Translations under genes and position numbers: made by a program
Source of the DNA: a virus
DNA length: 20,795 nt
Direction: 5' to 3' (one strand)
IMG/VR virus record: IMGVR_UViG_3300020404_002052
Span: 1 to 20,795 of that record
Notes under the pieces: generated by a model
What the model was told of the DNA's origin: nothing
Database searches by the model: none
Seen by the model: the letters and a program-made list of their open reading frames with translations, nothing else
Shown: one piece after another, positions 46 through 20,795 of the stretch
Layout of the letters: every line of letters starts with the position of its first letter
How positions within the stretch are numbered: the first letter of the stretch is position 1

Positions 46-66
46 TTAATTTTTAACATAAATAGT
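46..66 (+). promoter_or_regulatory. Candidate T4-type late promoter upstream of gp25
   Basis: The 24-base gap before gp25 contains TTAATTTT (46-53) and CATAAATA (57-64), continuing as TAAATAGT (59-66). CATAAATA differs from the T4 late-promoter box TATAAATA at one position. The same two blocks recur before the gene at 14132. If transcription begins 5-6 bases after the box, as at T4 late promoters, the first transcribed base would fall at or next to the gp25 ATG. That would leave no leader, in keeping with the absence of a Shine-Dalgarno sequence. The motif match is seen; promoter activity is inferred. Confidence 0.5.
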
Positions 67-3400: not shown

Positions 3401-3565
3401 CTAATCAGTAGCTTTGTAATTGTTCCACAAGGAGCAGACAGTGTGTTTGGAGATCTATTTGAAATTAAACCAATGAGCAGTGAATTGTTTATACCAGATG
3501 TAAAAATTGAAGACATTGATATTATCGATGCAATCACAGATACAAATATTAGAGCAGGACAGTAG
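455..3565 (+). CDS. 6: Baseplate wedge subunit gp6-like, enlarged (J-type protein)
   Basis: The protein has 1036 aa; T4 gp6 has about 660. gp6 forms the inner ring of the T4 baseplate by linking neighbouring wedges and belongs to the baseplate-J-like group. The N-terminal part is typical: residues 32-116 include DFDTIRSAMVDYV, EFVALLDVVAQFGHNLAFRI, LSTSERQESIFKLAEFLGYT and P. The C-terminal part, about 900-1036, has the domain expected at the end of gp6 (YRSVTYKPLFGNTAQTQLKA, then a final segment with ELAAFVHKELSGLISSF). The extra length is mostly in the middle, roughly 480-880, which I cannot assign to T4 gp6. It contains a calcium-loop-like stretch, DYDNDGDLDN, at residues 819-828. The start lies one base after the gp25 stop, with only weak AGAG as ribosome site. 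The C-terminus ends in RAGQ, encoded by a 14-bp repeat that recurs in the next gene. Confidence 0.9.
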   Translation: MAQNTRQTKLFAAEDYTIVYDSFINANLQAYDFDTIRSAMVDYVRNNYPENYNDWIESAEFVALLDVVAQFGHNLAFRIDLNTRNNFLSTSERQESIFKLAEFLGYTPKRNVPAFGEMKIVSVKTNEAVIGSEGTSLGGKELRFENTSSINNMDDFITVMNALMQDSNTFGSPVKQSIIENVTHQFYKLKNNANQIKFNLIGSAAGKSSVFNAIGLDINNRGIVEEVTPDRNNAFSIVYKNDGQGITSAKTGFFVGLKQGDLQSRDFPINDPISNMKIDIDVENINNTDVWVSTVNEAGDSLAYWTKVENVFGQNEIYNVLPGSERNIFSVKTRENNQISVCFSDSNFGNLPKGIIRVWFRTSVDQTYTLRPDDLGPQKITVNYIGSDGNQYQAVLGIQLKAPVIGATLAETANSIKENAPRNYSAQGRMITASDYNNVIQTQSQDALKIKSINRTHSGHSRYIHTMDPTGAYTSVNVFNKDGKLYAYENTESISTATNESSNQVYNKYVKNILNNSEFLNLYYTKFPFESLKPQSYNVNTYEWQISEDNPIGENNGWFSQGDTIVKVGRSQTEYVKNIEVGSLIEFSDANGENAKWAKVVNIYNNGLGVYDQAGAPTGLTSVGKGSIVLDANIPKGKYIKCIYPAFNRVFSDRETQIILGYLKSTKTFAIYYNFINTSWEIFEPTVGADSSAPFTTYNTTNNQENWLLWFEYNNGSYSILSRTIRFEFSSENVEFSNISNEYKLDTYTLKNEKDKVTILNDQFEEAGTFFISGYFTDKNGVPDSNRVIVSLEDSNNDVRPDNPRAFDDIIVSSTYLFDYDNDGDLDNISGKENLRFEWEHNPDRNVLVDPSFTNIIDVFVLSNSYDSEFKQYLLGKRDIPNPPTSFQLSKTFSDVENKKAMSDSVVYRSVTYKPLFGNTAQTQLKARFRVIKLQGSNVTDNDVKTKIIEKIDEYFKIENWDFGETFYFTELAAFVHKELSGLISSFVIVPQGADSVFGDLFEIKPMSSELFIPDVKIEDIDIIDAITDTNIRAGQ

Positions 3566-3599
3566 TAATGGCAGGTAATAAGAAAAGAGCAGGACAGTA
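3551..3599 (+). repeat. 14-bp direct repeat across the gp6/giant gene junction
   Basis: AGAGCAGGACAGTA occurs at 3551-3564 and again at 3586-3599, a 35-bp period. The first copy encodes the last residues of gp6 (RAGQ and part of the stop) and includes the AGGA (3556-3559) that serves as ribosome site for the giant gene, 8 bases before its ATG. The second copy lies inside the giant gene and encodes RAGQ at its residues 7-10. The repeat is exact by direct reading; whether it arose by a local duplication is unknown. Confidence 0.85.
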
Positions 3600-6500: not shown

Positions 6501-9500
6501 AACTACATTTACTATAGATAAAATTGCAGGCGGAGATAGAAACATTAGAGATCATGTTTATGTTTGGTTAAATGATGACAAAGACAACAATGATGTAATA
6601 TTGAGAAGAATACTTGTAAAAGACAAAGAATACACAGTAAATGGCGACAAGATTAATCTACTAATCACACCTCAAGTAAGTGTAAGTGGACAATTTCCAA
6701 GTGTAGAAATTAGTTATTACCAAATGGATACAAAATCATTTGTTCCTCAAAGTCTTGTTAAGTTGGGAATACAAGTTGGTCAAGAACCTAAAGTTGTAGA
6801 TGACAAACTAATCACGCATGACAATAGAAATTACACACTAACATCTAATGCAGATTTATTTAATTTAAACACAGCAACATTTGATATTGTAAATGCTGCA
6901 CAATACGAATTAGAATGTATGATATATGCAGGACTAGTAAAAGATGATTTACTTTACTCTAATACAACACACAAATCTGTAGACAAGTATATTCCAAGTC
7001 AACACAGAAGCACATGGTATTCAAATGCTATGCTTGATGAATATGTTTACACATACTATAGCAAATGGGCAAGAACAAATAATTATCCGGTAGTCATTGA
7101 AGACTTAGTGTATGATGTTAACGATAGTAAAACATGGAATTACAAAGATATGACTTCTACTATCCTTGGATCAAATAATGATTTCGTTGATACACATTTA
7201 CCTGGACATTATGTAGGCATTTACAATATAATATTTGGAACAGCAACTCCTCATTTAACACCATGGCACATGCTAGGCTTTAACTTTAAGCCTCAATGGT
7301 GGGATACGTATTATAGTTGGACAGATGCAACAAAAAGAACAGCATTAATTTCTGCACTGAGATTCGGCAACACAAATAATCCTGCAGATAATATTACACA
7401 AGAAATCACATATGCAAGACACGCATGGGATTGGGCAAATAAAGCACCAGTAGATACAAGTGGTAATTTAGTAGATCCAAAAGATATACTAGGAACGCCT
7501 AGTGTGCTTGAAGCAAGCAAACCTTTTAAATTTGGAGACTGGGGTCCAACAGAACAATTATTTAGACAAACTGCCCAATGTAACGCAATCACAATAGATG
7601 CTATTTTAAAACTAAAACCAGCACAAGCATTTACAGAATTCTTTCAACCAGGATCGTTTATAACAGTTGAAAATGATGATTCAAAATTTATTGTAAGTGA
7701 ACTTATAAACAAAATGGTAAACAGTAAGTCATTTATGTTACCTGGTTACAAAAGCAACAAAGTTTTAAATGCTGTAAAAATAAACACAAATCATACATAT
7801 ACAAACACAGCAAACGAAAGTAGTATAGTTTATGGTAACAAGTTTAATCAAAACTTTACACCAGTTGTAAATTTTGATTCAGCTGGACAAGTAGATAATA
7901 TTATTGTAAACAAAAGACTTTTTGATATTGTTGACGAAGCAGTGTTTACAAGCAACGTTTTGGATAATAATTTAGATTTAGAATATGAATACACAGAAGC
8001 AGAATATGTAGCAAACGGTATAAGCCAAGCTCAATATAATTATACAGTAAGAAATAGATTTACAGATTTAGCAGAACAAAATTATACAAACCTAGATACA
8101 CAACTTATTCAAAAGCTAAATGGTTTTACAACAAAAAGCAGTATGAGCTTTTTTGCAGAAAGTGGTATAGATGGATCGTTTGCTGTATCCGACAACGATT
8201 ATAATATTACCATGCATAGAGAGTATCCTAATACATTAATTAATGCAAGTCAACTTGTAATTAAAAAAGAACCTGAAGGATACCAAATCAAAGGTGCTAG
8301 CACTAATAGACAAGAATTTTCTTTTCTTGAACCAAATATTAGTGGACCAGATACTTTTACTGAAATTGATGTATCAAACAGAGTAATTAAAAAATATAGA
8401 AAGTTTTCAAGCACTCCTAGTATTTTAGAATATGGATCAGTATTAAATAAAATACAAGATGTTTATACTTTTATAAGAGGCTATTTTGCTTACTTAGAAA
8501 ATAATGGATTTAAATTCCCTACAAGCAAAGATGCACATGCAAATACATTTGTAAGATGGACTGTCAGAGCAGAAGTAGGACAAGAAATCACAATAGACTT
8601 AGGAAAAATTATAGAGTTTACTGCAAACCATGGACATGTTTGTGAGTCTGGAACTTTTGAATATTTTGCAAACAACATTAACTTTAGAGATGGATCTGAA
8701 GCATCAAAAGAAAACCTAGTGGTATCACGTAAACAAGGCAAAGTAGTATTTGAAAACAAACAAGAAAAATCATTTGGCAACATAACAGTAGCAGTGGTTG
8801 ATTTTGAACATGCAGTAGTGTTTAACAACAGAACAATTTTTAATAATGTTTTGTTTGACGATGTTAAAATGTCAAGACAAGATAGATTAATTGCAAGAGG
8901 CGGAGTTACAAAAGAATGGAATGGTGAGAAAAAGGCACCTGGTTACTTAATATTTGATGATCATATTGTTCAAAACTTTGACAGTAGTGTTGAAGAAATA
9001 AACGAATATTATAGAACTGATATAGCCGAATTTAACCCAAATGTTAAAAAAGCAAAAGACATCAGCATAGGCAATATTGATAGAGACTGGGTTGAAAATT
9101 TACATCTAGATCCAAATGTTATTACTAGATTTTATCAAGGTGCAATAAAAGAAGCTGGCACAAATGCAAGTGTGGATAGGCTTGCTAGATTTATTAAAGG
9201 TGCAGAAGATATTCAAGTGTTTGAAAAATATATGTTTAACCATAGTTACTTTGGTGATACTACAAGAAAGCAAAGCACAGAAATAAAAATATTGCAAAAA
9301 GAACTTGGAAATAATCCACAGGTTATAGAATTTTCTGAAACACCAAGTGCTTCAAAAAGCATTGCAATTACAAGTGATGATTCTAGATTTGTAAACAAAA
9401 ATAAAACAGAATTTAACATAGCAGATTTTTCAAGTGTAGAAACTAAATTAAATACTGCTGGTAGCCCATTATCAACAGAGGCTAGATACTATGCATTTAA

Positions 9501-12500
9501 CACAACAGAAATGCCAAATGTATACGATAGCACAGCAGATTATGCACAAATTGAAAGTTGGTCTTCTACAAAAGTTTATGGTTTTGGAGACATAGTTAGA
9601 AGACAAGCAGGTCTGTATAAATGTATTGTAGACTCTACTGGACTAAGAAGAGTAGATACAGGTATATTTGAAACAGGTAGTAGGAGTAATCCATTTTTTC
9701 CTAGTGGAACAGTTGTAAACATAGAAGACAATCCTGTAACACTTACAGAAAGCACACAGGTAATAAATGATATTATTGCAACAGGCACTGTGGTTAATCC
9801 TACTGTCAACAATTTAGATCAACTTTCAATAAATGGTAATGTGTTAACTTTTAGAGGAACAAACAGCTCACAAGGTGTTATTGGTCCGGCTCAACTATTA
9901 GGTAACATTGCTAATCCAATTTTTCAAACAAAAGCAGGCAAAGCAATTGTTATCAATGGCACAACAGTAGATTTTGATGACATACCTTCTAATATCCAAC
10001 AAAATACAGCAATTATAGATATAGGTGTAACACCTCCAAATGTTGATGAAACATTTACAGTAGATACAGTAACACCTCTTTCAACATATACCATTGCTAC
10101 ACCTTTATCTCCAACAACATTTGGTGTGTTACAAGTAACAGTAGACAGTGTAACATTAGCGAGCGGAGACTTTAGTGTTGCTGGTCAAGATATAACAATT
10201 AATAATCCAGCTTTACTTGGAGGCGAAACAATAATAGTTAGCCTTACACATCAACCAGTAATAGACCTACTCAACACTTATACTATTTCACAAGCATTAA
10301 GTGTTACAGGATATCAACTTGAAAGTGTTATTGTAGACGGCACAACATTAACATCTAGCGATTTTACACTTGCTGGTCAAGATATTATACTGAATAATGT
10401 AAGCCAATACAGCGAAGGTGATGCAATACAAATTAATTTATTCCATGTTGATAATGGAATGACAACAACAGAAATTATTAATAAAATTACAAATACAGTT
10501 CCTAATGTAACAGCATCATTGGATAACAATGCAATATTATTAGAGTTTACAGGAGCAAATACTACCGATCAGCTTATACTATCAGCTGGTGTAGTAAATG
10601 CAGAACTAGGTTTTGCTACAGCAGGCGAGTCATCAAATGTTGTAGTAGGTATATCGTATGCACCTCTTACTATGCAAGAAGTCATTGATCAAATAAATGG
10701 ATTTGCATCATTTAGCCTAGATAATATAACAGCTTCTGAATCAAGTAATCAACTTGTAATTACAAAAACACAAATTGCATTTGGCGAAATAATGTCAATT
10801 GGCACAGGCAGAACAATATTTGGTTTTGATAGTTCTTATCAATTTGAAACTGTTACAAGTCCAACAAAGGTAAGTGGTGCTAATGCAGTTATACAAATAA
10901 ACAATCACTTAACATCACAAGGCATAACAAATATTACAGTATCTCTTGTGTCTAACAGAATTAATATCACAGCAGATGCTCAAGCAGTAGATTTTGGAAA
11001 TACAGACTTCAATAATATAGCAGGTTTACCAACAGGATTACAAACAAATACTAATACTAGTATTGAAAATACATTTAATTATTTTGGAGAAAATGATCCA
11101 AATAATGATTGGCAGATATTATCAGACGACCAAGATCCTGCATTATTTAATATTTGGACAGTGAATGACAGCGATTATGCTGTTGACACAATAGACAATA
11201 TAAAAACAAAGTTCAACGGTTGGAATGTTTTTCAAATGCAAAATCATGGACTATATACAGTTGATCCAGATCCAGAAGAAGATTGTGGAATTTGTGCAGG
11301 CAAATCAACATCAGATGGCAATGATGCTAGAATAACAACAATATCATCACATGGACTCAAGGCAGGTGATTATGTAATGTTGTTAAACACAACAACTCAA
11401 CCAAATATAGATGGTATACATAAAGTTACACAAGTTGATGAATTTAATGACAGAATATTTTTCATTGATAAATTTATTGATGTTTGTGGAAATGCTAGTG
11501 CAGTTATGATATTACGTCCTCAACGTTTTGAAGATGTTGCACAAAGAGACTTGAATCAAAACATTACAAATAGATCTTTAGTATATGTTGATAAAGTAAT
11601 CGGAGGCATTGAAGATCCAGTAACTACAAATGTATTTACTACAAATATAGATGCAAACGGTGTTGTAACATTTGAAGATACTCGATTTACAAAATACAGA
11701 ATTTTAAATAACGATGTTGAAAATATAACAATTTACGATCATGACAAAAATAAAACTTTAAAACAACTTGAACTTTTTGATCCATTAAGAGGTATTATTC
11801 CAGGAATAGCAAATTCAGAAATTGATATGACAGCTGATGTCGATACAGCCGCGTATAACAATACAAGTAACGAAGAATATACACCGGTTACAGAAAATTA
11901 TTGGTCACAGGATCAATTAGGCAAACGTTGGTGGGATACAAGCACACTAACTTATTATGATTATGATCAAGGTGACTATGCATATCAAAGTAGCCATTGG
12001 GGTAAAATATTTCCAGGCTCAAGTGTAGATGTTTATGAATGGACAAAGTCATCTGTAGGCCCAGAAGATTATGCAAAAGAAGTTGAAAATCAAACAGAAA
12101 TGTTTGGCGTAGTTGCATCTGGTGAGGCTTACTTTGTTTATGATCCTATTCTACAAGAAAATTATTATTACTATTCAACAGTAGAAGAGTGGGACAATAA
12201 ATTAGGCACATACTCAACATGTTATTACTTTTGGGTTAAAAATAAAAACACAGTGCCTTTTGGAAAGGACCTGTCAACAAGTGCAGTTGCAGATATAATT
12301 GAAAATCCTACAGCAAACGGTATTAGTTGGTTTGCAGCACTTACACCTACAACTACAAACAACACAATAACACATACTAGCGGTAACGCATTTATACTTT
12401 CAAATGCTGACATATATTTAAATGATACTAGCACTGTTATTCAAATCAATAGAGTGCCAGCAGGTATAAACCACAATAGTTGGACAACAATTGCAAAAGA

Positions 12501-14082
12501 TAGAGATTTAATTCCAGATTATTATTATATTGGCTTAAGAAGCAACCTTGCTACAGTTGATGCACTTGAAAACACATTACCAAATTATAATGCACATCCT
12601 TATTGTAGATATGGCGATGATAGAGAAAAAATACAAACTTGGTTCATTGATCATAAACAAGCTAGACAAAATGCTATGGTAGTTATAAATCATTTACTCA
12701 AAGATATTAATTTATATACTGATTATTATGATATTTGGGATAGGGAATTTGTAAAAAATAATATGCCAAACAAAACTTGGAAGTGGGCAAGTTACGTTAG
12801 CAAGGATAGAAATCCATTTGTAGTGCCAAGTATCACTATAAACAATGTCAATGAACTTGATACATTAGATACAAGCAAGGTTAAAACAGTTAAACTTAAA
12901 ATAACAAGCGAGGGTTTAGACAGAAGTGAAATTTGGGAATACATAAATTCTAACTGGGTTATTACAGAAAAAGCAAATGCAACTATAGAATTAGAAGAAA
13001 TTGTTGCTAAGAAGAGAGCAGGATGGGATCAACAAGCATGGGACACTACCATTTGGGATAACACTGAAACAAGAGATTGGTGGAGAACAATTATTGACGC
13101 AAGCAGAAACGATTGGTTTATTGACTTGAATATTGTTAAGTTTAACAAACTATTCTTTGCAATGGTTGATTACACATTTAGTGAACAAGATCAAACCAAT
13201 TGGTGTCATAAGACAACTTATGTAAAACTTGATATAACGCATAGTATTAACACTAAGTTACGCAAATATACAAGAAGCACAATGAATAATATTATAGGTT
13301 ATGTTGATACACTTAAACCTTTCCATACAAAAGTAGATGAAATATTAGACATACAAAAAACAAAAGAAGAAACTGCAATAGCAATCACAGAAGATCCTAA
13401 GCAAGTTATACATCTTGAATATGATGATTTGACTAGCATATTTACAGGCGACACAAGAGATCATGGGTCTGCTTGGGATATACTTGCAGGAGAATCCTCA
13501 GGCAATGACTGGAGCTTTGCAGAAACATATGATAATGGAGCATTCCACCAGCCACACTTGTTTGGAAGTGAAAACAATCCTAATAGACAACACAATTTAA
13601 AAGTTAGTTTTGGATCATTAACAGGTTTCAAAGTGCAAACTAATACTACAGCAAACACAGTAGATAACAATACAAGAACATTTGTATACATGAAAAATAT
13701 AGATTCAGACATTCCATTAATTGTATCACTCGAAGAAAGCAAATCTGCACTTACAACAACTGAAATGACATTTGCAGGAAACACAGTAACATTAGATGAT
13801 GCAAGTGCATTTGCAGATACAGGCATTGCATATATTAATAATGAATTTTTACAATATAATAAAAATGGTAATGATTTAAGTATTATTACAAGATCAACAA
13901 TGAACTCATTAGAGTTACAACATGCAATAGGCAGTGTAATTGTTGACGTAACAAATAGTTTCCTAACTTCAGCAGAAATAGGAACAACAATGCTCAACGA
14001 TATGGGCGAGAGTATATTAACAAGCACAGACAGTTTAGCGGCTGTTGAGCTACAAGCACTAGGAAAAGGCATAGAGATATAA
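3568..14082 (+). CDS. Giant 3504-aa multidomain virion protein in the gp7/gp8 position
   Basis: This single uninterrupted frame takes half the window. It follows gp6 with a two-base gap and an AGGA ribosome site at 3556-3559. By synteny it holds the place of T4 gp7 (about 1030 aa) and gp8 (about 330 aa), so a peripheral baseplate-wedge role is the best guess; I cannot show homology to either. The following can be seen, with residue positions. A conserved FNPPVNIDMLVNFSSYYW segment lies at about 130-147. A Trp-rich block at 1232-1365 contains PWHMLGFNFKPQWW and GDWGP. FYQGAIKEAGT lies near 1850. A chitin-binding-type-3-like motif spans 1998-2019 (W, Y, GD, V, Y, C). Two tandem 64-aa repeats occupy 2173-2293, and further beta-type repeats 2298-2491. 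CGIC is at 2573-2576, followed by HGLKAGDYVML. GKRWWDTSTLTYYDYDQGDY and FPGSSVDVYEW lie near 2785-2820. FNKLFFAMVDYTFSEQ lies near 3193-3210. The C-terminal domain, about 3397-3470, has ITRSTMNSLELQHAIGSVIV. There is no signal peptide or membrane segment. Arginine is almost always AGA. Several of these blocks resemble large structural proteins of marine T4-like phages as I remember them. Other possibilities are a host-contacting tail appendage or a fusion of several wedge genes. Confidence 0.8.
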   Translation: MAGNKKRAGQYPNSKVSATNFLPKTFQSDTNKSWLDSTLDQMISKGNLKDYHGFIGSIHGSERTFNETYIDIINNNKAKQISQLQPGIVLKDNENKITNTLAFDDVVNALQTNFTNYNYASAYSSQGYVFNPPVNIDMLVNFSSYYWAQNLPIYTATNTGATVDIFDEIDNQAVYELTDDNNTFKLHNGMIIKFSGNWGTTATDNTYIVTGVGTGIKLILFRDTTGKTMYSNQYKGNIRSDGYWDRNVVYTVEFRTGSKYAGQSSLDMILAYNADTAADKPVFFDGFNLLRHESNNDKLVKNMYVILPDQTGVYYLEVGDGTVTATAITPNSNLGESYDIESWDFEQVIETEPDYIVIAKDDSRQTAWSRINNWVHINCLRTLKQIIPHMDLSLYANATYQAKRSIIEFETKMNLFEGADYIASTDMQWLGNIDYYVKPEGDYLPTVSGSDLIMPAEANIENGSLVIFTDTYNTHVYKMTGGVLVEHKAIVNGYTAFIDYTPHNDLKEYEKCDVYFTSAGIQKSQAKTLANQEPLFKVYTIDNVEVSQYDYNFKGNKVFGYKTGTGNTDPILGKKLSYKDTAKGAEYEFENCLNTYNLDYIIADTIDPKLGHNSKAKGYNYFKQDNKLVTLYKTSDIVFGAYEHLQYVITEAQIASQQFDIPIGFSNYRPTFEYFVYMVDGKINLKETTSQGTSINKNVDRFKDGILVDTTSTIKITNLTDDDLVFANNSITITSGATQELTSIVNDSAEYNNQSVFKITVADSINNHFHRLTKNGINFDTSDVTVNSNTTTINTTNCKAGDIIDIEFINNDVDNATNNPSFPTLWQSNSNNEMFDSFTITETADHWKDMMLAIPGFNGVPFGENNYSSSIRLASYGGKIFLNESTGIMHDIQYMDKEFSITGALYEQGQDYDAFITRFRNQVRRVYSSGAVTNISEVVNKTLKILLANKKGTDLYETSNMLYTEEPITKTFTIDNNQTTFTIDKIAGGDRNIRDHVYVWLNDDKDNNDVILRRILVKDKEYTVNGDKINLLITPQVSVSGQFPSVEISYYQMDTKSFVPQSLVKLGIQVGQEPKVVDDKLITHDNRNYTLTSNADLFNLNTATFDIVNAAQYELECMIYAGLVKDDLLYSNTTHKSVDKYIPSQHRSTWYSNAMLDEYVYTYYSKWARTNNYPVVIEDLVYDVNDSKTWNYKDMTSTILGSNNDFVDTHLPGHYVGIYNIIFGTATPHLTPWHMLGFNFKPQWWDTYYSWTDATKRTALISALRFGNTNNPADNITQEITYARHAWDWANKAPVDTSGNLVDPKDILGTPSVLEASKPFKFGDWGPTEQLFRQTAQCNAITIDAILKLKPAQAFTEFFQPGSFITVENDDSKFIVSELINKMVNSKSFMLPGYKSNKVLNAVKINTNHTYTNTANESSIVYGNKFNQNFTPVVNFDSAGQVDNIIVNKRLFDIVDEAVFTSNVLDNNLDLEYEYTEAEYVANGISQAQYNYTVRNRFTDLAEQNYTNLDTQLIQKLNGFTTKSSMSFFAESGIDGSFAVSDNDYNITMHREYPNTLINASQLVIKKEPEGYQIKGASTNRQEFSFLEPNISGPDTFTEIDVSNRVIKKYRKFSSTPSILEYGSVLNKIQDVYTFIRGYFAYLENNGFKFPTSKDAHANTFVRWTVRAEVGQEITIDLGKIIEFTANHGHVCESGTFEYFANNINFRDGSEASKENLVVSRKQGKVVFENKQEKSFGNITVAVVDFEHAVVFNNRTIFNNVLFDDVKMSRQDRLIARGGVTKEWNGEKKAPGYLIFDDHIVQNFDSSVEEINEYYRTDIAEFNPNVKKAKDISIGNIDRDWVENLHLDPNVITRFYQGAIKEAGTNASVDRLARFIKGAEDIQVFEKYMFNHSYFGDTTRKQSTEIKILQKELGNNPQVIEFSETPSASKSIAITSDDSRFVNKNKTEFNIADFSSVETKLNTAGSPLSTEARYYAFNTTEMPNVYDSTADYAQIESWSSTKVYGFGDIVRRQAGLYKCIVDSTGLRRVDTGIFETGSRSNPFFPSGTVVNIEDNPVTLTESTQVINDIIATGTVVNPTVNNLDQLSINGNVLTFRGTNSSQGVIGPAQLLGNIANPIFQTKAGKAIVINGTTVDFDDIPSNIQQNTAIIDIGVTPPNVDETFTVDTVTPLSTYTIATPLSPTTFGVLQVTVDSVTLASGDFSVAGQDITINNPALLGGETIIVSLTHQPVIDLLNTYTISQALSVTGYQLESVIVDGTTLTSSDFTLAGQDIILNNVSQYSEGDAIQINLFHVDNGMTTTEIINKITNTVPNVTASLDNNAILLEFTGANTTDQLILSAGVVNAELGFATAGESSNVVVGISYAPLTMQEVIDQINGFASFSLDNITASESSNQLVITKTQIAFGEIMSIGTGRTIFGFDSSYQFETVTSPTKVSGANAVIQINNHLTSQGITNITVSLVSNRINITADAQAVDFGNTDFNNIAGLPTGLQTNTNTSIENTFNYFGENDPNNDWQILSDDQDPALFNIWTVNDSDYAVDTIDNIKTKFNGWNVFQMQNHGLYTVDPDPEEDCGICAGKSTSDGNDARITTISSHGLKAGDYVMLLNTTTQPNIDGIHKVTQVDEFNDRIFFIDKFIDVCGNASAVMILRPQRFEDVAQRDLNQNITNRSLVYVDKVIGGIEDPVTTNVFTTNIDANGVVTFEDTRFTKYRILNNDVENITIYDHDKNKTLKQLELFDPLRGIIPGIANSEIDMTADVDTAAYNNTSNEEYTPVTENYWSQDQLGKRWWDTSTLTYYDYDQGDYAYQSSHWGKIFPGSSVDVYEWTKSSVGPEDYAKEVENQTEMFGVVASGEAYFVYDPILQENYYYYSTVEEWDNKLGTYSTCYYFWVKNKNTVPFGKDLSTSAVADIIENPTANGISWFAALTPTTTNNTITHTSGNAFILSNADIYLNDTSTVIQINRVPAGINHNSWTTIAKDRDLIPDYYYIGLRSNLATVDALENTLPNYNAHPYCRYGDDREKIQTWFIDHKQARQNAMVVINHLLKDINLYTDYYDIWDREFVKNNMPNKTWKWASYVSKDRNPFVVPSITINNVNELDTLDTSKVKTVKLKITSEGLDRSEIWEYINSNWVITEKANATIELEEIVAKKRAGWDQQAWDTTIWDNTETRDWWRTIIDASRNDWFIDLNIVKFNKLFFAMVDYTFSEQDQTNWCHKTTYVKLDITHSINTKLRKYTRSTMNNIIGYVDTLKPFHTKVDEILDIQKTKEETAIAITEDPKQVIHLEYDDLTSIFTGDTRDHGSAWDILAGESSGNDWSFAETYDNGAFHQPHLFGSENNPNRQHNLKVSFGSLTGFKVQTNTTANTVDNNTRTFVYMKNIDSDIPLIVSLEESKSALTTTEMTFAGNTVTLDDASAFADTGIAYINNEFLQYNKNGNDLSIITRSTMNSLELQHAIGSVIVDVTNSFLTSAEIGTTMLNDMGESILTSTDSLAAVELQALGKGIEI
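10084..10446 (+). repeat. Two tandem 64-aa protein repeats inside the giant gene
   Basis: Residues 2173-2236 and 2237-2293 of the giant protein align with a period of 64 codons (192 bp). Shared positions include TYTI at the start, V-x-VD, TL-x-S-x-DF, AGQDI and NN, ending with L-x-H. At DNA level GCTGGTCAAGATAT occurs at 10180-10193 and again exactly 192 bases later at 10372-10385, so the copies arose by duplication or are held close by selection. Each unit alternates hydrophobic residues as in beta-sandwich domains. Further, less similar units with an I-x-x-IN opening and V-x-x-S middle follow to about 11040. They look like the hook-IN or Ig-like modules common in tail proteins; this last assignment is inference. 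Confidence 0.75.
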
Positions 14083-14126
14083 TATAAGTATATTTAATTT
14101 TATGCTAAATAGTGTAAAGGAATAGG
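14083..14126 (+). promoter_or_regulatory. Candidate late promoter and ribosome site for the 197-aa gene
   Basis: The 49-base gap after the giant gene contains TATAAGTA (14083-14090), TTAATTTT (14094-14101) and GCTAAATA (14104-14111), continuing as TAAATAGT (14106-14113). The TTAATTTT/TAAATAGT pair matches the gap before gp25, with spacing 4 instead of 5. TAAATA is the core of the T4 late-promoter box. Downstream, AAAGGA (14116-14121) and TAGG (14123-14126) provide a ribosome site before ATG 14132. Late-promoter function is inferred from the motif and its repetition. Confidence 0.5.
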
Positions 14127-14131
14127 CAACG

Positions 14132-14725
14132 ATGTATAACACAACAGATAATGCAAACTTATCATTTCACGGTCATGTATTGATCAGTGATGCAGACACG
14201 GGTGAAGTTCTGCTAGATAAGTTTAATGCAATTAATTTTGAAAACATGGCCATTGCAATTGCTAATTTACTAGCCAATCAAACAGATGCAAATGGAAATG
14301 GCTTTTACATTTCTAAAATAGCATTTGGTCGTGGCGGAACAATAGTTGATGCAAACGGTAACATTACATATAAAACACCAAAAACAAATGGTTCACAAGG
14401 TTCTTTATATGAACCAAACTTTGGAGCAAACGCTGATCAAGTTGTTGAGAAAGCTGTTGGTTCATTTGAAATATCCGAATCAGCTGGACAAACATTTAGA
14501 GACTTAACAAGTGTTGTAACACTTGATTACTCGGAACCAGCAGAAGCACTTGCAAGCGATAATGCTTCTAACTTTGATGATGCACAATCATATGTATTTG
14601 ATGAGTTAGCATTAGTTGGAGACAATGATGCTTTACTTACTCATTTAATTTTTCACCCAATACAAAAAAGCCTTAACCGTAAACTAGAGATTCGATATAC
14701 TCTAAGAATAACAGCAGGAAATTAA
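14132..14725 (+). CDS. Conserved T4-like virion structural protein (197 aa)
   Basis: The protein is soluble in appearance, with no signal peptide or membrane segment. It opens with NANLSFHGHVLISDADTGEV followed by LLDKFNAINFENM, and has FGRGGTIVDANGNITY near residues 65-80. It ends with VFDELALVGDNDALLTHLIF, HPIQKSLNRKLEIRYTLRI. I recognise this pattern (HGHV-x-I-x-D, D-x-NAI-x-x-ENM, GNGGT, LTH-x-IFHP-x-QKSLNR) from proteins annotated as structural or hypothetical in marine T4-like phages. That is from memory and has not been searched. It sits between the giant gene and fibre-type genes, so a baseplate or fibre-attachment role is plausible but unproven. Ribosome site AAAGGA ends 10 bases before ATG. 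It is the first gene after a candidate late promoter, and the next gene starts one base after its stop. Confidence 0.75.
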   Translation: MYNTTDNANLSFHGHVLISDADTGEVLLDKFNAINFENMAIAIANLLANQTDANGNGFYISKIAFGRGGTIVDANGNITYKTPKTNGSQGSLYEPNFGANADQVVEKAVGSFEISESAGQTFRDLTSVVTLDYSEPAEALASDNASNFDDAQSYVFDELALVGDNDALLTHLIFHPIQKSLNRKLEIRYTLRITAGN

Positions 14726-14726
14726 A

Positions 14727-15620
14727 ATGGCATATTCAATTAATAAAAGAAATGGAACTATAACAATTGTCGAAGGTCAACTCAATACTGAAACTAGCCT
14801 GCAACTCGTTGGTAAAGATTATTTTGGATATGGTGATGCAATAGCACAGAGTTTTGTAGATTTACTACAGAATTTTGCAAGCGACACAGCTCCAACATCT
14901 CCAATTGAGGGGCAGATTTGGTATGATACAAGCAATAACTTTCTTCGTGTTTACAATGCAAAAGACTCTAATAATCCTGTAGTTGACACTGATGGTAGTT
15001 GGGCGACAATAGACTTAGGATCATCAGGTCCTACTATAATAAAAGACACAACAAATGTCGATCATGAAATATTAGTCTTATACCAAAACGGATTAGCAGT
15101 AGCTGCATTAAGTTCAGAAGCGGCATTCACAGTCCATGCAAGTGATGCTCTAAAATCATCTTTTGCTGATATCAAAACAGGTATCACATTAAGTGGCGCA
15201 GCAAATATGAAGTTTCATGGCACAGCAACAACAGCAGAATATGCTGACTTAGCTGAGTTATACTCAAGTGATAAAGATTACGATGCAGGCACAGTTGTTA
15301 AAATTGGCGGCGATGCAGAAGTTACTGAAACAACTTTTATAAGAGATGAAGATGTATTTGGTGTAGTATCAACTGACCCAGCATACTTAATGAACAGCAT
15401 GCTACAAGGAACAAGTGTTCCAGTTGCACTAGCTGGTAGAGTTCCTTGTAAAGTAATGGGAGAAGTTACAAAAGGTCAAAGACTTACATCAAGCGATACA
15501 CCAGGTGTAGCAATTGGTGCACCAAGTGATGCAACACACAGACAAGTAATTGGAAGAGCATTGGAAAACAAGACAACAGAAGAAGTTGGTTTAATAGAAA
15601 TAATTGTTGGAGTAAAGTAA
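14727..15620 (+). CDS. Tail-fibre-type virion protein with YADLAE/VPVALAGRVP C-terminal domain
   Basis: The protein has 297 aa in three parts. Residues 1-95 form an N-terminal module with LVGKDYFGYGDAIAQSFVDL, LQNFA, then GQIWYDTSNNFLRVY at 62-76. This is the repeat-like module I know from fibre and structural proteins of marine T4-like phages. Residues 108-165 form a linker (HEILVLYQNGLAV, FADIKTGITL, MKFHGTATTA). Residues 171-297 form a compact C-terminal domain: EYADLAELY, GTVVKIGG, VFGVVSTDPAYLMNS, VPVALAGRVPCKV, GRALE. Such domains end many phage fibres and bacterial surface proteins; some relatives are trimerisation or intramolecular-chaperone-like. I cannot say whether this one is cleaved. 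AGGA at 14716-14719 is a good ribosome site, eight bases before the ATG. The likely role is a short tail fibre or baseplate decoration. Confidence 0.8.
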   Translation: MAYSINKRNGTITIVEGQLNTETSLQLVGKDYFGYGDAIAQSFVDLLQNFASDTAPTSPIEGQIWYDTSNNFLRVYNAKDSNNPVVDTDGSWATIDLGSSGPTIIKDTTNVDHEILVLYQNGLAVAALSSEAAFTVHASDALKSSFADIKTGITLSGAANMKFHGTATTAEYADLAELYSSDKDYDAGTVVKIGGDAEVTETTFIRDEDVFGVVSTDPAYLMNSMLQGTSVPVALAGRVPCKVMGEVTKGQRLTSSDTPGVAIGAPSDATHRQVIGRALENKTTEEVGLIEIIVGVK

Positions 15621-16820
15621 TTGTCTACACCTTTTAATCCTAATGCTAGCGTAAGCGCATCTGAATTTATGACAAACCTTGTAACGTTTTATAACGATTA
15701 CTGGAGTGATCCTGCTGGCAGTTTTAGTTTTGATGCACAGCATACAGTAGACTTGGATAGAAGAAAAGGTTGGGGACAAGATCAAGTAAATGTAAAAGGT
15801 ATAACTGAAACAAGTGTAGCAACGGGACAACTTGTAGAAGCTGAACACTTGAACTCAGTTATTGCACAAGTAAATGCAGGATTGCAACACATAGACAACA
15901 GTTTAACTTTACTTGGTAGTGTATCACAAAATGCATTAATAACAGCTTCAGAAGTAGAAGCAGTTAGACAACAGATATCAGGAACTATTGATACAAGAAA
16001 GTTCGAAGTTGGTGATGATTCAAGTATGATTACTGTAATTGATGATGAAAACAATGCAGTAGACCCAAATGATCTTTCAAGCCTAGGAACTCCTTGGAGT
16101 GAGGATTTATACATAGAATACAAATACACATTTACAGATTATAATCATGCCAGACACTTTTTTAACAGTGGAGGTGAACTTACAATCAAACTTGATATGA
16201 CAAATCATAACACACCAGGAAATCTAATATGGGATGAAATTTTTGAATCATTTGGCCACATAGGTATAGGTGCAGTAAATAGTCAAGCAACACAAGAAGC
16301 TGGAGATTTATATCAAGCTCCTAACCTTATTCCTAACAGAGGTTTTTATTCTATTACACCTTCATTCACTACACTATTCGAAACAGCAGGTGCTTATTCA
16401 GTTGGCGATCCTGGAAGTGGTGCTTATATATACGCATTTATACAAAGTGCATACAATAGTAGAAGAATAAAAGTAGAAGGCAAAGGTGTAGATAGTTCAT
16501 CAGGATTTGATATAATTATAAGAGTATCTCTATTAGAAGATGAAGACGATAACTTTCCAATCACAGGTAGAATTTCAGCAGACATAGGATACAAAATAGC
16601 TGAACTTAGCCCGGACAATGGAACAGGTGACATGAATCCATATACAGGTGTTCCTGGTTCAACACAATATAGATTTCAAGCTATAGTAGATCCAACAGTA
16701 ACATTAACAACAACATGGACACCAGACGATTTACCAGATCCAGTGCAAGTTACTTGGGATGCAGGCGATCCTGGTGTTAACTGGACTCAAACAGATACTT
16801 ACACGTTTGACGAATTATAA
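15621..16820 (+). CDS. Tail-fibre/baseplate-type structural protein with FFNSGGE motif, TTG start
   Basis: The protein has 399 aa. The chosen start is TTG at 15621, immediately after the previous stop. It is supported by GGAG at 15609-15612 (8-base spacing) and by a natural N-terminus, MSTPFNPN; the next in-frame ATG (15669) would drop 16 residues and has no comparable site. Residues 43-90 contain VDLDRRKGWGQDQVNVKG followed by a helical stretch (VEAEHLNSVIAQVNAGLQHI). Residues 165-190 carry YKYTFTDYNHARHFFNSGGE. The ARHFFNSGGE pattern is one I associate with fibre or baseplate proteins of marine phages. The C-terminal third is beta-rich, Thr/Asp/Pro-rich and ends in DTYTFDEL. No catalytic motif is apparent. 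It is the last gene of the structural block; 56 bases with a sigma-70 promoter follow. Confidence 0.75.
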   Translation: MSTPFNPNASVSASEFMTNLVTFYNDYWSDPAGSFSFDAQHTVDLDRRKGWGQDQVNVKGITETSVATGQLVEAEHLNSVIAQVNAGLQHIDNSLTLLGSVSQNALITASEVEAVRQQISGTIDTRKFEVGDDSSMITVIDDENNAVDPNDLSSLGTPWSEDLYIEYKYTFTDYNHARHFFNSGGELTIKLDMTNHNTPGNLIWDEIFESFGHIGIGAVNSQATQEAGDLYQAPNLIPNRGFYSITPSFTTLFETAGAYSVGDPGSGAYIYAFIQSAYNSRRIKVEGKGVDSSSGFDIIIRVSLLEDEDDNFPITGRISADIGYKIAELSPDNGTGDMNPYTGVPGSTQYRFQAIVDPTVTLTTTWTPDDLPDPVQVTWDAGDPGVNWTQTDTYTFDEL

Positions 16821-16823
16821 GTA

Positions 16824-16852
16824 TTGACAACTTTAAATTTTTATCATACAAT
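16824..16852 (+). promoter_or_regulatory. Strong sigma-70-type promoter for the GT cassette
   Basis: TTGACA at 16824-16829 is a perfect -35 box. TACAAT at 16847-16852 is one base from the TATAAT consensus, and the spacer of 17 bp is optimal. It lies in a 56-base AT-rich gap right after the structural block. Transcription would begin near 16859, giving a leader of about 18 bases to the ATG at 16877. Early genes of T4-like phages are read by unmodified host RNA polymerase from such promoters. The sequence match is direct; early timing is inferred. Confidence 0.75.
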
Positions 16853-16865
16853 AAAAAAATCTTAT

Positions 16866-16870
16866 AGGAG
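16866..16870 (+). promoter_or_regulatory. AGGAG ribosome-binding site
   Basis: AGGAG ends six bases before ATG 16877. It is among the best Shine-Dalgarno sequences in the window, where several other genes have weak sites or none, so the first gene of this cassette should be translated well. Confidence 0.75.
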
Positions 16871-16876
16871 TAATCT

Positions 16877-17224
16877 ATGGACGAACGTCTTCAGAAAGCG
16901 TTAGAGTTTAGTAACTATACCGCTACAATCAACAATCAAAAAAGAAATATTAAAAACAGGTTTGAACAACTTAGACTTGTTCATTTTAGTGGTGGAGTTT
17001 TTATTGCCAATCACGAAACTATCTCATTTATAAAAACAATGATAGAGATGGATCATACTTCTGGTATATTAATAGATAGCAAAGAAAATCCCATCAGCAT
17101 TAAAAGTTTTAGAGAATTACTTGAAAGGCTAATGGATGCATATTTTAGTGCAACAACAGAATACGAAGCCGAGTATGCTAAAATTAAAAAAGCACGAAAT
17201 ATTAAGTCGCTAATGGATTGGTAA
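16877..17224 (+). CDS. Small conserved helical protein of unknown function (115 aa)
   Basis: The protein is charged and mostly helix-forming: MDERLQKALEFSNYTATINN, QKRNIKNRFEQL at the N-terminus, a hydrophobic FSGGVFIANHETISFIKTMI centre, then KSFRELLERLMDAYFSATTE and a Lys-rich end. No transmembrane segment, metal motif or enzyme signature is visible. I have the impression of similar 'LEKALEFSN...LNNQK' proteins in marine T4-like phages, annotated as hypothetical, but cannot confirm it. It is the first gene behind a strong sigma-70 promoter and AGGAG site. Its stop overlaps the next gene's ATG by one base (TAATG), so translation of the two is probably coupled. A structural or assembly role cannot be excluded. 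Confidence 0.7.
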   Translation: MDERLQKALEFSNYTATINNQKRNIKNRFEQLRLVHFSGGVFIANHETISFIKTMIEMDHTSGILIDSKENPISIKSFRELLERLMDAYFSATTEYEAEYAKIKKARNIKSLMDW

Positions 17225-18111
17225 TGTCAGAAATACAAGAGCAACGTGGTGTTTGTTTTTTTGCATACAATAACAGTCAAATAGATTATGTGGAACTTGC
17301 AACACTAGCCGCACTATATGTAAAAGAAAATTTAAATCTTCCTGTGTGTTTAATCACAGACGAAGGCAGTGAAGCATGGCTACAGCAATCAAAACCAGAG
17401 CTAGCAGAAAGATGTTTTGATTATATTGTTCTCACAAATGACGAAATGAAAAAAAATAATAGAATACATTATGATAGTCCTTGGTTTGAATTTAGCGCAC
17501 AGTTTAACAACAGCAACAAACACAAAGTATATGAATATAGTCCATTTGAACAAACTATACTGCTAGACATTGATTATATTGTAAAGACAGATTTCTTGCA
17601 TAATCTTTTTAATTATCAAGGAGTATGTATGTTTGACAAAGCAATTAATATCAGAAATCAATTGCCATTACTCAGAGAAACTATGTTACATGAGGCAGGT
17701 ATTAAAATGTGGTGGAGCACTGTAGTTTACTTTGATCGTAGTGATATGAGTAAATTATTTTTTGATACATGGGCACATATTGCAGATAACTATGAATTCT
17801 ATCAATATCTTTACAACTTTCCTCCAAAATTATTCCGCACAGATTATTGTGTAAGCATAGCAAGTCATATTTTAAATGGTATGACAGAAAGTAATGTAAT
17901 CAATTCTATTCCTACACAAATGACAAATGTGGGACAGCGTGACGATATTAACGAAGTTCAAAGTAAAAATAATTGGATCTTTATTGCTAACGATCAAAAA
18001 GAGAATTGGAAAAACATTGTTGTCAACAATGGTATAATGGATATACATTGTATGAATAAACGTTCATTGGGTAGACATTATAATAAGTTGGTGGAGTTTT
18101 TTAATGAGTAG
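17224..18111 (+). CDS. GT-A-fold glycosyltransferase-like protein (first of two paralogues)
   Basis: The protein has 295 aa from ATG 17224. A TTG two codons upstream (17218) is open but has no better signal, and the ATG forms a TAATG overlap with the previous stop. The N-terminal half reads like a nucleotide-sugar-binding GT-A fold: GVCFFAYNNS, LPVCLITDEG, then SPFEQTILLDIDYIV, with D115-I-D117 as a DxD-type metal site at the end of a hydrophobic strand. The second half has WWSTVVYFDRSD and RTDYCVSIASHIL, then a conserved-looking Pro (SIPTQM). This fits a sugar transferase acting in the cytoplasm, but donor and acceptor are unknown and no named GT family can be assigned by eye. It overlaps the next gene, its paralogue, by 8 bases. 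Arginine codons are 5 CGN of 10, unlike the paralogue (0 of 9). Confidence 0.65.
   Translation: MSEIQEQRGVCFFAYNNSQIDYVELATLAALYVKENLNLPVCLITDEGSEAWLQQSKPELAERCFDYIVLTNDEMKKNNRIHYDSPWFEFSAQFNNSNKHKVYEYSPFEQTILLDIDYIVKTDFLHNLFNYQGVCMFDKAINIRNQLPLLRETMLHEAGIKMWWSTVVYFDRSDMSKLFFDTWAHIADNYEFYQYLYNFPPKLFRTDYCVSIASHILNGMTESNVINSIPTQMTNVGQRDDINEVQSKNNWIFIANDQKENWKNIVVNNGIMDIHCMNKRSLGRHYNKLVEFFNE
18015..18031. repeat. Short inverted repeat, 8-bp arms with 1-base centre
   Basis: CATTGTTG, T, CAACAATG reads the same on both strands apart from the centre base. It lies inside the first GT-like gene. Eight-base arms can occur by chance in AT-rich DNA, so function is doubtful. Confidence 0.4.
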
Positions 18112-18934
18112 AGGATATGTTATACAAGCAGATACAGATCCAGAATTGTATCAAGCAGAGCTTTTGGCAAATAGTATAAAAATTAAAAACAAAGATGCTC
18201 AAGTATGTTTGGTAACTAGTAGGAATCTCGAAGCTGATGCATTTAACGATATCGTTAAATATGAATTTTATATGCACGAAGAAGTAGCAAACATTAGGCA
18301 AAAAGATTGGCAGTTGTATTGGTGTAGTCCATATGAATACACTATTGCTATGGATTGTAAATCTATTGTTATGGAATCACATGACAACCTTTGGGATTAT
18401 TTAATAGACAATCACAGTGTTTGCTTGCCTACTGTTGTAAAAGATTTTAGAAACAATGTATTAGTAGATAAACAACTTTCTAAATACGAACAAGAATACA
18501 AATACAAAAAAGCATACGGTAATTGTTTTTATTTTGACAAAAGCGAGGAAAGTCTTCAATACTTTAAATTTTTAGATCCACTGTGTAGAGATTGGAGATC
18601 TGCAGAAGGATCCTTGTTTCAAAAACAACATGCCAACAAAGAGTATTACAGTGACTTAATTCATACTGTGGCTGCCAACAGTATGAGATTTGATGTGTTT
18701 CCTATATCAAATGATATTTTAAGTTATATCGATATGAACATCGCATGGAGTGATGGTATATTGCCAGACGGAGAAAACTGGCTTGATGTTATGAGTGTGT
18801 GGAGCACAGATATAGCAACTCTTAAAATACAAAATTATAGTATTAATAATACCTTATACTATCACGAAGATAGCTTTTACAATAATGAAATAGCAGATGA
18901 CTTTAGAAACTACAGAGAAGCAATTAACAAATAA
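18104..18934 (+). CDS. Second GT-like paralogue with degenerate DxD motif
   Basis: The protein has 276 aa and is related to the preceding one along its whole length. AQVCLVTSRN matches LPVCLITDEG, SPYEYTIAMDCKSIV matches SPFEQTILLDIDYIV, HSVCL matches QGVCM, NCFYFDKSE matches TVVYFDRSD, and FPISN matches IPTQM. The key difference is at residues 84-86: D-C-K replaces D-I-D, so the second metal-binding Asp is lost. Either the protein is an inactive partner or regulator, or it is a metal-independent or otherwise altered transferase. The paralogy is seen directly; the functional consequence is inference. GGTGGAG at 18090-18096 is a good ribosome site, and the ATG overlaps the upstream stop by 8 bases. 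All nine Arg codons are AGA/AGG. The gene contains a perfect 20-bp palindrome. Confidence 0.65.
   Translation: MSRGYVIQADTDPELYQAELLANSIKIKNKDAQVCLVTSRNLEADAFNDIVKYEFYMHEEVANIRQKDWQLYWCSPYEYTIAMDCKSIVMESHDNLWDYLIDNHSVCLPTVVKDFRNNVLVDKQLSKYEQEYKYKKAYGNCFYFDKSEESLQYFKFLDPLCRDWRSAEGSLFQKQHANKEYYSDLIHTVAANSMRFDVFPISNDILSYIDMNIAWSDGILPDGENWLDVMSVWSTDIATLKIQNYSINNTLYYHEDSFYNNEIADDFRNYREAINK
18241..18260. repeat. Perfect 20-bp palindrome
   Basis: ATTTAACGAT is followed directly by its exact reverse complement. The site is inside the second GT-like gene, where it encodes FNDIVK. A perfect 20-bp palindrome without spacer is rare in 21 kb even with high AT content. It could be a dimeric-protein binding site or chance within coding constraints. 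It is not followed by a T-run, so it is not a terminator. Confidence 0.7.
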
Positions 18935-19874
18935 AAAATACTGGATAAGTTTTGTAGAAGCTACTGGAAAAGTTGTAGGAATATCGGCTACAGAACCAAA
19001 TAAAGTAGATGATAAATTTACCGTAATACAATCAGATAATGAAGATTTAAGATTACTTTTAAAAGGAAAAGCCAATATCAAAAATTATTTGGTAAAGAAA
19101 AATGCTTTAACAAATGATTGGTTGTTCAGTAAAAAAAGTAAAGAATTAGAACTTCAGCCAATAAGGAAAAAGTTTGAACAAGTTCCTTTGTCAACTAATG
19201 CAGAAGAGAATGATATCTTTGTAAATTTTTACAAGCAAAGCATGAAAGCAGTTATTACACTAAACAAAACAAGAGTTATAAAAAATAACAATTTAGCAAC
19301 AATAAGTGATGTTGTGGAAAACGAATATAGCTTGTTAAATTTATTTGTTTGTAAGAAAAACGATCCTGATAAACTTATTACTATTATTGAAGTAGATGCA
19401 AAACTACTAGTGAAGTATGGTAAACTACTTTTAGATTTACCAGAAACTATATTAAAATATGCAGACATAGATAAAATAAGTATATTTGTTCTTCCTGTTT
19501 TTGAAAAGTATGGTATTAGTTTTGTAGACAAATTTATCGAAACACCAGATTTAAAAGGACAATCAAAACTTATCAATCAAAATACACACGATGATGCATT
19601 AATAAATATATATGCAGTTAATGATAATGTTTTAGAAATAAAAAACAACACAAATGAATCACAGTTTAGTTTGTTTTATAACCAAAGTAATTTAAGATTT
19701 ATAGTATGTAACAAACATGTTGATAACTTCATAGGAGGGTTTGAAGTAAATGTAAATGAATTATTGTCAACTGATAGTATAAAAATAAAACTAGATTTTG
19801 AAATACCTGATAAACCATTATTCTTTTACAAAAATAATAACATATCAGTATCATACAACGGAGAGAAAACATGA
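18897..19874 (+). CDS. Unrecognised 325-aa phage protein
   Basis: I do not recognise this protein. It begins MTLETTEKQLTNKKYWISFV, with VGISATEPNK after it; a hydrophilic, Lys/Asn-rich body follows, with no signal peptide, membrane span or obvious enzyme motif. Central segments (LVKYGKLLLDLPETILKY, KISIFVLPVFEKYGISFV) suggest alternating helices and strands, and the end (GFEVNVNELLSTDSIKIKL) looks beta-rich. The start overlaps the previous gene by 38 bases with no Shine-Dalgarno sequence. No later ATG, GTG or TTG is available near the N-terminus, so translational coupling is likely. Its stop overlaps the next ATG (ATGA). Lying between two GT-like genes it may be a partner or acceptor protein, but that is context only. 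All four Arg codons are AGA/AGG. Confidence 0.6.
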   Translation: MTLETTEKQLTNKKYWISFVEATGKVVGISATEPNKVDDKFTVIQSDNEDLRLLLKGKANIKNYLVKKNALTNDWLFSKKSKELELQPIRKKFEQVPLSTNAEENDIFVNFYKQSMKAVITLNKTRVIKNNNLATISDVVENEYSLLNLFVCKKNDPDKLITIIEVDAKLLVKYGKLLLDLPETILKYADIDKISIFVLPVFEKYGISFVDKFIETPDLKGQSKLINQNTHDDALINIYAVNDNVLEIKNNTNESQFSLFYNQSNLRFIVCNKHVDNFIGGFEVNVNELLSTDSIKIKLDFEIPDKPLFFYKNNNISVSYNGEKT

Positions 19875-20795
19875 GCAACATGACTAGTATCAACGAATTT
19901 GATATAGTTTTTATTAGCTTCGACGAGCCAAATGCAGATGAGAACTACAACGACTTATTAGAAAAATGTCCATGGGCACAACGTAGTCATGGTGTGTTTG
20001 GTAGTGATGCAGCACACAAAGCTGCAGCAGACTTAGCAGAGACAGATAGATTCATTACTATCGATGCAGACAACATTGTTGATCCTGCATTCTTTGGTGT
20101 AGAAGTAGACATGGCACGTATACGAGATACAGATGTTGTTAGTTGGGCAGGTAAAAATACTATCAACGGATTAGTTTACGGCAACGGCGGTATTAAGTGT
20201 TGGCCTAAAGAAGTTGTATACAATATGCAAACACATGAGAATGCACCAGCAGGTGATAAACGTGCGCAAGTAGATTTTTGCTGGAATATTCATTATATTC
20301 AGATGAACAATATCTATTGTAATGTAATGAACAACGGCAGTCCATTACAAGCATGGCGTGCAGGATTTCGTGAGGGTGTTAAGATGGGATTAGTAGATGG
20401 TGATGTAATTGATCCTCGCTATTTAAAAGAACGTGTGCATGATAAAAACTACAAAAGACTACTTACATGGATGAGTGTTGGCGATGATGCCGAAAATGGA
20501 ATATGGGCTGTGTATGGTGCAAGGCTAGGTTGTCACATGACAAACATTGCAAGAACAGAGTGGGATTGGAAAAACGTAAGAGACTTTCGTTGGCTTACTA
20601 ATTTTTTTGAGACAGATGTTCTTCCACAATTTCAAAACAATGACGATCAATTGTGTAAACGCACAGGCACACGTTGGAACTATGATGCTGTGCTAAACGC
20701 AAGCAACGAACTTGGGTATGAACTACGCAGAGATTTGGATTTGGAAATTGCTGACCTAGGAGTAGAAGGAAGTAAATTCTTTAAAGAAGTTTACA
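19871..20795 (+). CDS. GT-A-like glycosyltransferase family protein, C-terminus cut by window edge
   Basis: The frame is open from ATG 19871 to the right edge (308 codons, no stop). The start overlaps the previous stop as ATGA, with GGAGAG just upstream. The N-terminus reads FDIVFISFDEPNADENYNDL, then HGVFGSDAAHKAAADLAETD, then FITIDADNIVD with D65-A-D67 as the DxD motif, and VYGNGGIKCWPKEVV further on. This 'DIVFIS-x-DEPNAD' plus 'GSDAAHKAA' plus DxD pattern is one I recall from cyanophage and other marine phage proteins classed as glycosyltransferase-like. The metal-dependent sugar-transfer reaction is inferred from the motif; donor and acceptor are unknown. Twelve of 18 Arg codons are CGN, and the gene looks less AT-rich than its neighbours, which suggests a different history or stronger expression. 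Confidence 0.75.
   Translation, partial: MSNMTSINEFDIVFISFDEPNADENYNDLLEKCPWAQRSHGVFGSDAAHKAAADLAETDRFITIDADNIVDPAFFGVEVDMARIRDTDVVSWAGKNTINGLVYGNGGIKCWPKEVVYNMQTHENAPAGDKRAQVDFCWNIHYIQMNNIYCNVMNNGSPLQAWRAGFREGVKMGLVDGDVIDPRYLKERVHDKNYKRLLTWMSVGDDAENGIWAVYGARLGCHMTNIARTEWDWKNVRDFRWLTNFFETDVLPQFQNNDDQLCKRTGTRWNYDAVLNASNELGYELRRDLDLEIADLGVEGSKFFKEVY

Follow-up and report, generated by a model that had tools for sequence, protein, structure and literature searches.

The question raised by this locus is what a run of five overlapping genes, here called A to E, does behind the virion genes of an uncultured phage. An initial annotation of the same DNA had read the run as a phage glycosylation module, and our analysis supports that reading through the predicted folds of B and E, the paralogy of B and C, and the promoter upstream of A. 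The window analyzed is the complete IMG/VR record IMGVR_UViG_3300020404_002052, 20,795 bp, and its features are as follows.

57..64, plus strand: late-type box CATAAATA upstream of gp25 (from sequence; same motif at virion genes of the 221-kb relative G001)
70-453: gp25
455-3565: gp6
3568-14082: giant structural protein, 3,504 aa (PHROG 'virion structural protein')
14105..14111, plus strand: late-type box CTAAATA upstream of o197 (control position; no sigma-70 site there)
14132-16820: three further genes (o197, o297, o399) between the giant protein and A
16824..16852, plus strand: sigma-70-type promoter TTGACA-N17-TACAAT upstream of A (11/12 match; conserved)
16866..16870, plus strand: putative ribosome-binding site AGGAG (GGAG-type site in nearly all relatives)
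16877..17224, plus strand: gene A, 115 aa, conserved protein
17224..18111, plus strand: gene B, 295 aa, predicted GT8/GT24-like GT-A glycosyltransferase with intact catalytic residues
17566..17574, plus strand: DxD of B, Asp-Ile-Asp, residues 115-117, invariant
18104..18934, plus strand: gene C, 276 aa, B paralogue, probable pseudo-glycosyltransferase
18353..18361, plus strand: degenerate DxD of C by alignment, Asp-Cys-Lys, residues 84-86
18897..19874, plus strand: gene D, 325 aa, fast-evolving protein
19871..20794, plus strand: gene E, truncated where the contig stops (308 aa out of about 328), divergent predicted GT-A protein

Gene layout and transcription signals

The giant protein is baseplate-associated and common to GAP32-type jumbo phages, although at an identity of only about 22-30%, and the closest cultured relatives of gp6 and the giant protein are the GAP32/CBB and Wroclawvirus jumbo phages. 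Genes A to E all lie on the plus strand, with successive overlaps of 1, 8, 38 and 4 nt, as expected from the tight overlap described in the initial annotation. The same annotation had placed the five genes at the end of the virion block; what ends here is the 20,795-bp contig, i.e., the whole record.

The sigma-70-type promoter consists of TTGACA (16824-16829), a 17-nt spacer, and TACAAT (16847-16852), and ends 24 nt 5' of the A start codon. It is the top sigma-70-like site within the last 10.8 kb of the window. Taken alone, the sigma-70-like sites in our scan are not above chance (63 observed, 54.5 expected from shuffles), and a single match is weak evidence, but its conservation upstream of A makes the case for a promoter strong. 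Among 40 distinct relatives, 35 have a match of at least 11/12 no more than 90 nt upstream of A, where 0.15 would be expected; for o197, o297, o399, B, C, D and E, the 33-41 relatives scanned per gene showed no such upstream match. Judged by this conservation, we take the promoter before A to be real. Three earlier proposals thus stand: a near-consensus sigma-70 promoter, an AGGAG ahead of A, and a promoter separate from those of the structural genes, since among the block genes scanned only A has the site.

Late-type signals are also present in the family. The box [AC]TAAATA lies upstream of o197 in 36/36 loci, and in the 221-kb relative it precedes gp25, o197, the likely sheath, tube and portal genes, and other virion genes, which indicates that the box marks virion genes. 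It is also found upstream of A in 30 of 40 relatives, where 6 are expected; in 21 of these 30 it sits at a fixed offset, 7-8 nt into the spacer of the sigma-70 promoter. The window copy upstream of A carries neither ATAAATA nor CTAAATA and reads TTTAAATT, and its own late box has decayed. Host-type and late-type signals thus overlap upstream of A in the family, and the window copy has the host-type signal only. The initial annotation had assigned late-type boxes to the upstream structural genes, as we find at gp25 and o197, and had them there instead of at the cassette; the latter part holds for the window copy but not for most relatives. No terminator-like site was found between o399 and A in a scan of the window, and so late read-through into A is also possible. 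The conservation of the late box in relatives suggests that the cassette is expressed early as well as late, and that early expression does not replace the late one. Elsewhere in the 221-kb relative, three sigma-70-like promoters before small unrelated genes (G001:145823, 148193, 214247) have near-identical spacers (two TTTATACCAAGATGTCT, one AATTAACCAAGATGTCT), suggesting a repeated early-promoter element.

Proteins encoded by the block

Searches of Pfam, PHROGs, NCBIfam and PDB with the sequences of A, B, D and E returned nothing usable, and weak PHROG matches, e.g., DnaD-like for E and endonuclease for D, were rejected as chance. The predicted structure of B is more informative. AlphaFold, supplied with 28 relatives, gave a model with pLDDT 93.1 and pTM 0.92, and a Foldseek search of the PDB returned 126 matches at E ≤ 0.001; the 50 listed are all GT-A enzymes, with UGGT, GlyE, glycogenin and LARGE1 leading among the matches listed. 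Residues D115 and D117 of the metal-binding DxD, and also H275 and K279, are kept in 71/71 distinct loci. Classification as a GT-A glycosyltransferase of the GT8/GT24 kind is strongly supported by the model, and the GT-A fold proposed earlier for B is borne out. The Pfam Glyco_transf_8 model found no match among 28 B members at E ≤ 0.1, and the spacing of the C-terminal His and Lys (H275, K279) differs from HxxGxxKPW, the C-terminal motif of GT8 enzymes. We refer to B as GT8-like and do not file it as GT8.

Profile comparison of B and C (hhalign, 98.4%) identifies them as paralogues, and the C profile matches glycogenin (E 3.4e-6), in agreement with the two GT-A-like paralogues of the initial annotation. 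The equal catalytic role which that description implied for the two proteins is not supported. In the alignment to glycogenin, the DAD motif corresponds to Asp-Cys-Lys in the window C, and the aligned His is Tyr. Among 71 loci, C retains both the DxD and the aligned His in 20; the DxD is missing in 51, and in 48 of these the His is lost as well. The replacements are diverse (DCA, DCK, DPA, SPY, RKQ and others). Mapped on the B tree, loss and retention of the C DxD need 3 changes, which places the loss deep in the tree as a property of whole clades rather than as scattered noise. With its 3 pairs, a test of joint DxD/His loss that allows for phylogeny is too small to reach significance. C is likely to be catalytically dead in the clade of the window. 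What is new here is the combination of catalytic residues intact in B (71/71) with motifs lost in C (DxD, 51/71), from which it follows that the window encodes an active/pseudo-glycosyltransferase pair, C probably being the pseudo-glycosyltransferase partner of its working twin B, with a role that we infer. Among the papers searched, none dealt with a phage pseudoglycosyltransferase.

The remaining proteins of the block are less easily placed. Protein A is well conserved (57% mean pairwise identity, 41 relatives) and has no convincing family match in sequence searches. D is fast evolving (31% mean identity) and in one lineage is fused to E in an ORF of 595 aa (locus L038 in G003). E is much more conserved, with a mean identity of 71% and an invariant DxD (D65/D67). 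Its AlphaFold model has pLDDT 91.4, and its best PDB matches are nearly all GT-A enzymes (WrtF, TarS, RmlT, TarP), though weak (E 4e-4 to 7e-3, TM 0.3-0.4), consistent with the earlier description of E as GT-A-like. The best viral structure matches are two large uncultured-phage proteins (TM 0.61). Pfam GT2 models matched none of 22 E members. Profile comparison finds E unrelated to B and C, and homology between B and E was rejected (hhalign, 2.6%).

Homologues of E are also encoded in Roseobacter-group chromosomes, with a GT4 gene directly upstream in Ruegeria and a GT4-like ORF in the corresponding position of the other Roseobacter-group loci that were read. Five such loci (L186, L189, L191, L193, L201), from Roseibium, Ruegeria, Tateyamaria and related bacterial genomes, encode E homologues of 37-43% identity beside the GT4-like gene and opposite a caspase-like gene. 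Exchange between phage and bacterium is a possible explanation for the bacterial homologues. Most long relatives have second E copies; the one in the 221-kb contig (L077:15881-17615, G001:75881-77615; 33-36% identity) adjoins an Anp1-like glycosyltransferase and lies behind fibre-like genes with late boxes. In three loci (L004:12660-13420, L013:12677-13451, L016:12668-13430) an extra gene of ~250 aa, nitroreductase-family-like by sequence alone, is inserted between D and E.

Downstream island and distribution

The operon does not stop at E. In relatives it runs on into a variable island of radical-SAM and sugar genes, and the A-E genes are consequently the conserved front of a longer modification island, inside which the window ends. 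The initial annotation had called the cassette self-contained, which cannot be maintained: the contig stops before E does, and relatives show further genes of the operon. Among 222 same-strand ORFs downstream of E, 117 contain CxxxCxxC, and three of four radical-SAM ORFs tested from the 221-kb relative pass the cut-off of N_Twi_rSAM (NCBIfam 'twitch radical SAM'). Among the papers searched, none dealt with twitch radical-SAM proteins in phages. Sugar-nucleotide genes occur in the island of some relatives (NTP transferase, NDP-sugar epimerase/dehydratase of the epimerase/GDP-mannose dehydratase type, UDP-glucose dehydrogenase), as do methyltransferases, and sulfotransferase- and SGNH-like proteins, judged only from their sequences, are encoded downstream of E. 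One locus (L056:12306-13055) has an apparent fusion of a cytidylyltransferase-like domain with a mannose-6-phosphate isomerase C-terminal domain. In four others (L018:13643-15254, L039:13628-15777, L024:13613, L040:13843) dihydrofolate reductase and thymidylate synthase, or a Thy1-like gene, directly follow E and replace the radical-SAM genes in that slot.

The order giant protein-o197-o297-o399-A-B-C-D-E is kept wherever the contig reaches, in about 40 contigs, and phage-like contigs from bins of Gammaproteobacteria, Rickettsiales and Bdellovibrionia contain the same module. Relatives of B are encoded in at least 456 IMG/VR stretches, whereas 50,697 phage records have neither a relative of B nor the A-E gene order. 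In tblastn searches of a phage collection (INPHARED), A, B, D and E had no match, nor did the E paralogue or divergent E and A homologues; a divergent C had one weak match, in an uncultured 484-kb phage. A-E are a core module of a large, widespread family of uncultured marine phages, and the module is so far without an isolate in which to study it.

Possible acceptors and known systems

We tentatively propose, at a little less than an even chance, that a glycan/protein modification operon is anchored by the baseplate-fibre block and has A-E as its conserved front. Together with the island, they probably decorate either the tail of the phage or the surface of the host cell, the virion or host-glycan function being one that we infer. 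With a nucleotide sugar as donor, B would transfer the first sugar or sugars, and C would be its non-catalytic partner, binding the acceptor or stabilizing B. D may be an adaptor for E, to which it is fused in one lineage, and E would add a further sugar. The downstream radical-SAM enzymes may modify the same product.

None of the A-E proteins has a membrane segment (maximum 19-residue hydropathy below 1.2), which makes it probable that the acceptor is soluble and cytoplasmic. This, the fixed link to virion genes and the late box that most relatives carry lead us to prefer as acceptor, still tentatively, one of the baseplate or fibre proteins of the virion whose genes lie immediately upstream. 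A mirror-tree test for the acceptor gave co-divergence with o399 for D (partial r 0.40) but not for C; as the distances are saturated, this is kept as a hint only, and the co-divergence could reflect that saturation or shared ancestry. Nearly level with this, and only narrowly less favored, is the reading that the module remodels a host envelope glycan (O-chain or similar) early in infection, leading to superinfection exclusion or the blocking of competing phages; its place next to the fibres would then reflect that module and fibres both evolve with the receptor. The host-type promoter would allow early expression, and B has a GT8-like fold, GT8 enzymes being typical of LPS synthesis. Sugar-nucleotide genes are present in some islands, and E has the Roseobacter-group homologues described above, near a GT4 gene in Ruegeria. 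The literature also points toward the envelope, since the host recognition cluster of pelagimyophages has been read as modifying the O-chain (PMC7029224). However, the missing membrane segments fit an envelope acceptor poorly, there is no flippase, polymerase or GtrA-type anchor among the 25 island Pfam families listed (of 25 + 16), and the late box of most relatives points to late expression too.

Action of the glycosyltransferases on phage DNA, on hydroxymethylated bases as a protection against restriction, is the classical role of such phage enzymes (T4; PMC12619734), and is highly unlikely here. The block sits with virion genes, and a thymidylate-synthase-family gene, from the family of the dCMP/dUMP hydroxymethylases, is missing in four of six long relatives including the 221-kb contig, although contigs may be incomplete; the six also gave no Tet/JBP match in a search whose control was silent as well. 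It is formally possible that C is a gene in decay and that the block amounts to two ordinary glycosyltransferases, B and E, which act independently and are carried as auxiliary genes. C does evolve fast (35% mean identity, compared with 57% for B), and its motif has degenerated in a variety of ways. Nevertheless, all relatives examined have C at its usual position with an uninterrupted reading frame, and it retains a few near-invariant residues; we regard decay as improbable.

B resembles glycogenin (GT8) and the UGGT catalytic domain (GT24) in its GT-A fold and DxD, and the C profile matches glycogenin; the differences lie in identity (10-16%), TM (about 0.4-0.5), the lack of a Pfam GT8 match, and the loss of DxD and His in C. 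In the GtfA/GtfB pairs of serine-rich repeat adhesins, two homologous glycosyltransferases act on the adhesin, and the one without catalysis binds the acceptor. They are GT4-like GT-B enzymes of Gram-positives, in contrast to the GT-A proteins here, and the shared feature of a homologous pair with one inactive member is an analogy only. The most elaborate form of our proposal is a dedicated phage machine that glycosylates its own tail/adhesin proteins through an active/inactive GT-A pair, in which a GtfA/GtfB-like division of labour evolved independently in another fold and radical-SAM enzymes complete the decoration, as a core property of a widespread uncultured marine phage family; in all its parts together this is rather unlikely. 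The cultured GAP32/CBB and Wroclawvirus jumbo phages share the gp25-gp6-giant structural protein block, but have no annotated A-E-like module behind the giant protein and gave no tblastn match. Moraphages are large aquatic T4-like phages with several core glycosyltransferases, are mostly freshwater, and have predicted Bacteroidota hosts (PMC12619734). We considered whether our lineage belongs to the moraphages; their typical lysyl-tRNA synthetase is absent from six long relatives, and it appears to be another group.

The closest known system is the host recognition cluster (HRC) of pelagimyophages and cyanomyophages, a hypervariable, non-syntenic region beside the baseplate gene VrlC described by Zaragoza-Solas et al. 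2020 (PMC7029224). GT8 is its most represented glycosyltransferase family; it contains radical-SAM cassettes and genes of the rfaE and UDP-glucose 6-dehydrogenase type, and its proposed role is modification of the host O-chain (PMC7029224). Our locus is likewise an island beside a baseplate/fibre block, with glycosyltransferases and, as seen in relatives, radical-SAM and sugar genes. The initial annotation had suggested an undescribed system, which in the strong sense is not supported: a 2020 study had already described islands rich in GT8 and radical-SAM genes next to the tail/baseplate genes of such marine T4-like phages (PMC7029224). The differences are that A-E are strictly syntenic and conserved, with only the downstream part varying, and that the locus has its own promoter, an active/inactive pair and a separate lineage. 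The HRC lies directly after VrlC; A-E follow the 3,504-aa giant protein, which matches GAP32-type jumbo phages and may or may not correspond to VrlC, and three genes. The island appears to work like, and to extend, the pelagimyophage GT8/radical-SAM cluster. The role of the HRC glycosyltransferases and radical-SAM enzymes has so far been answered mainly by analogy (LPS or DNA), and a fixed active/pseudo pair beside the baseplate provides a testable hypothesis for them.
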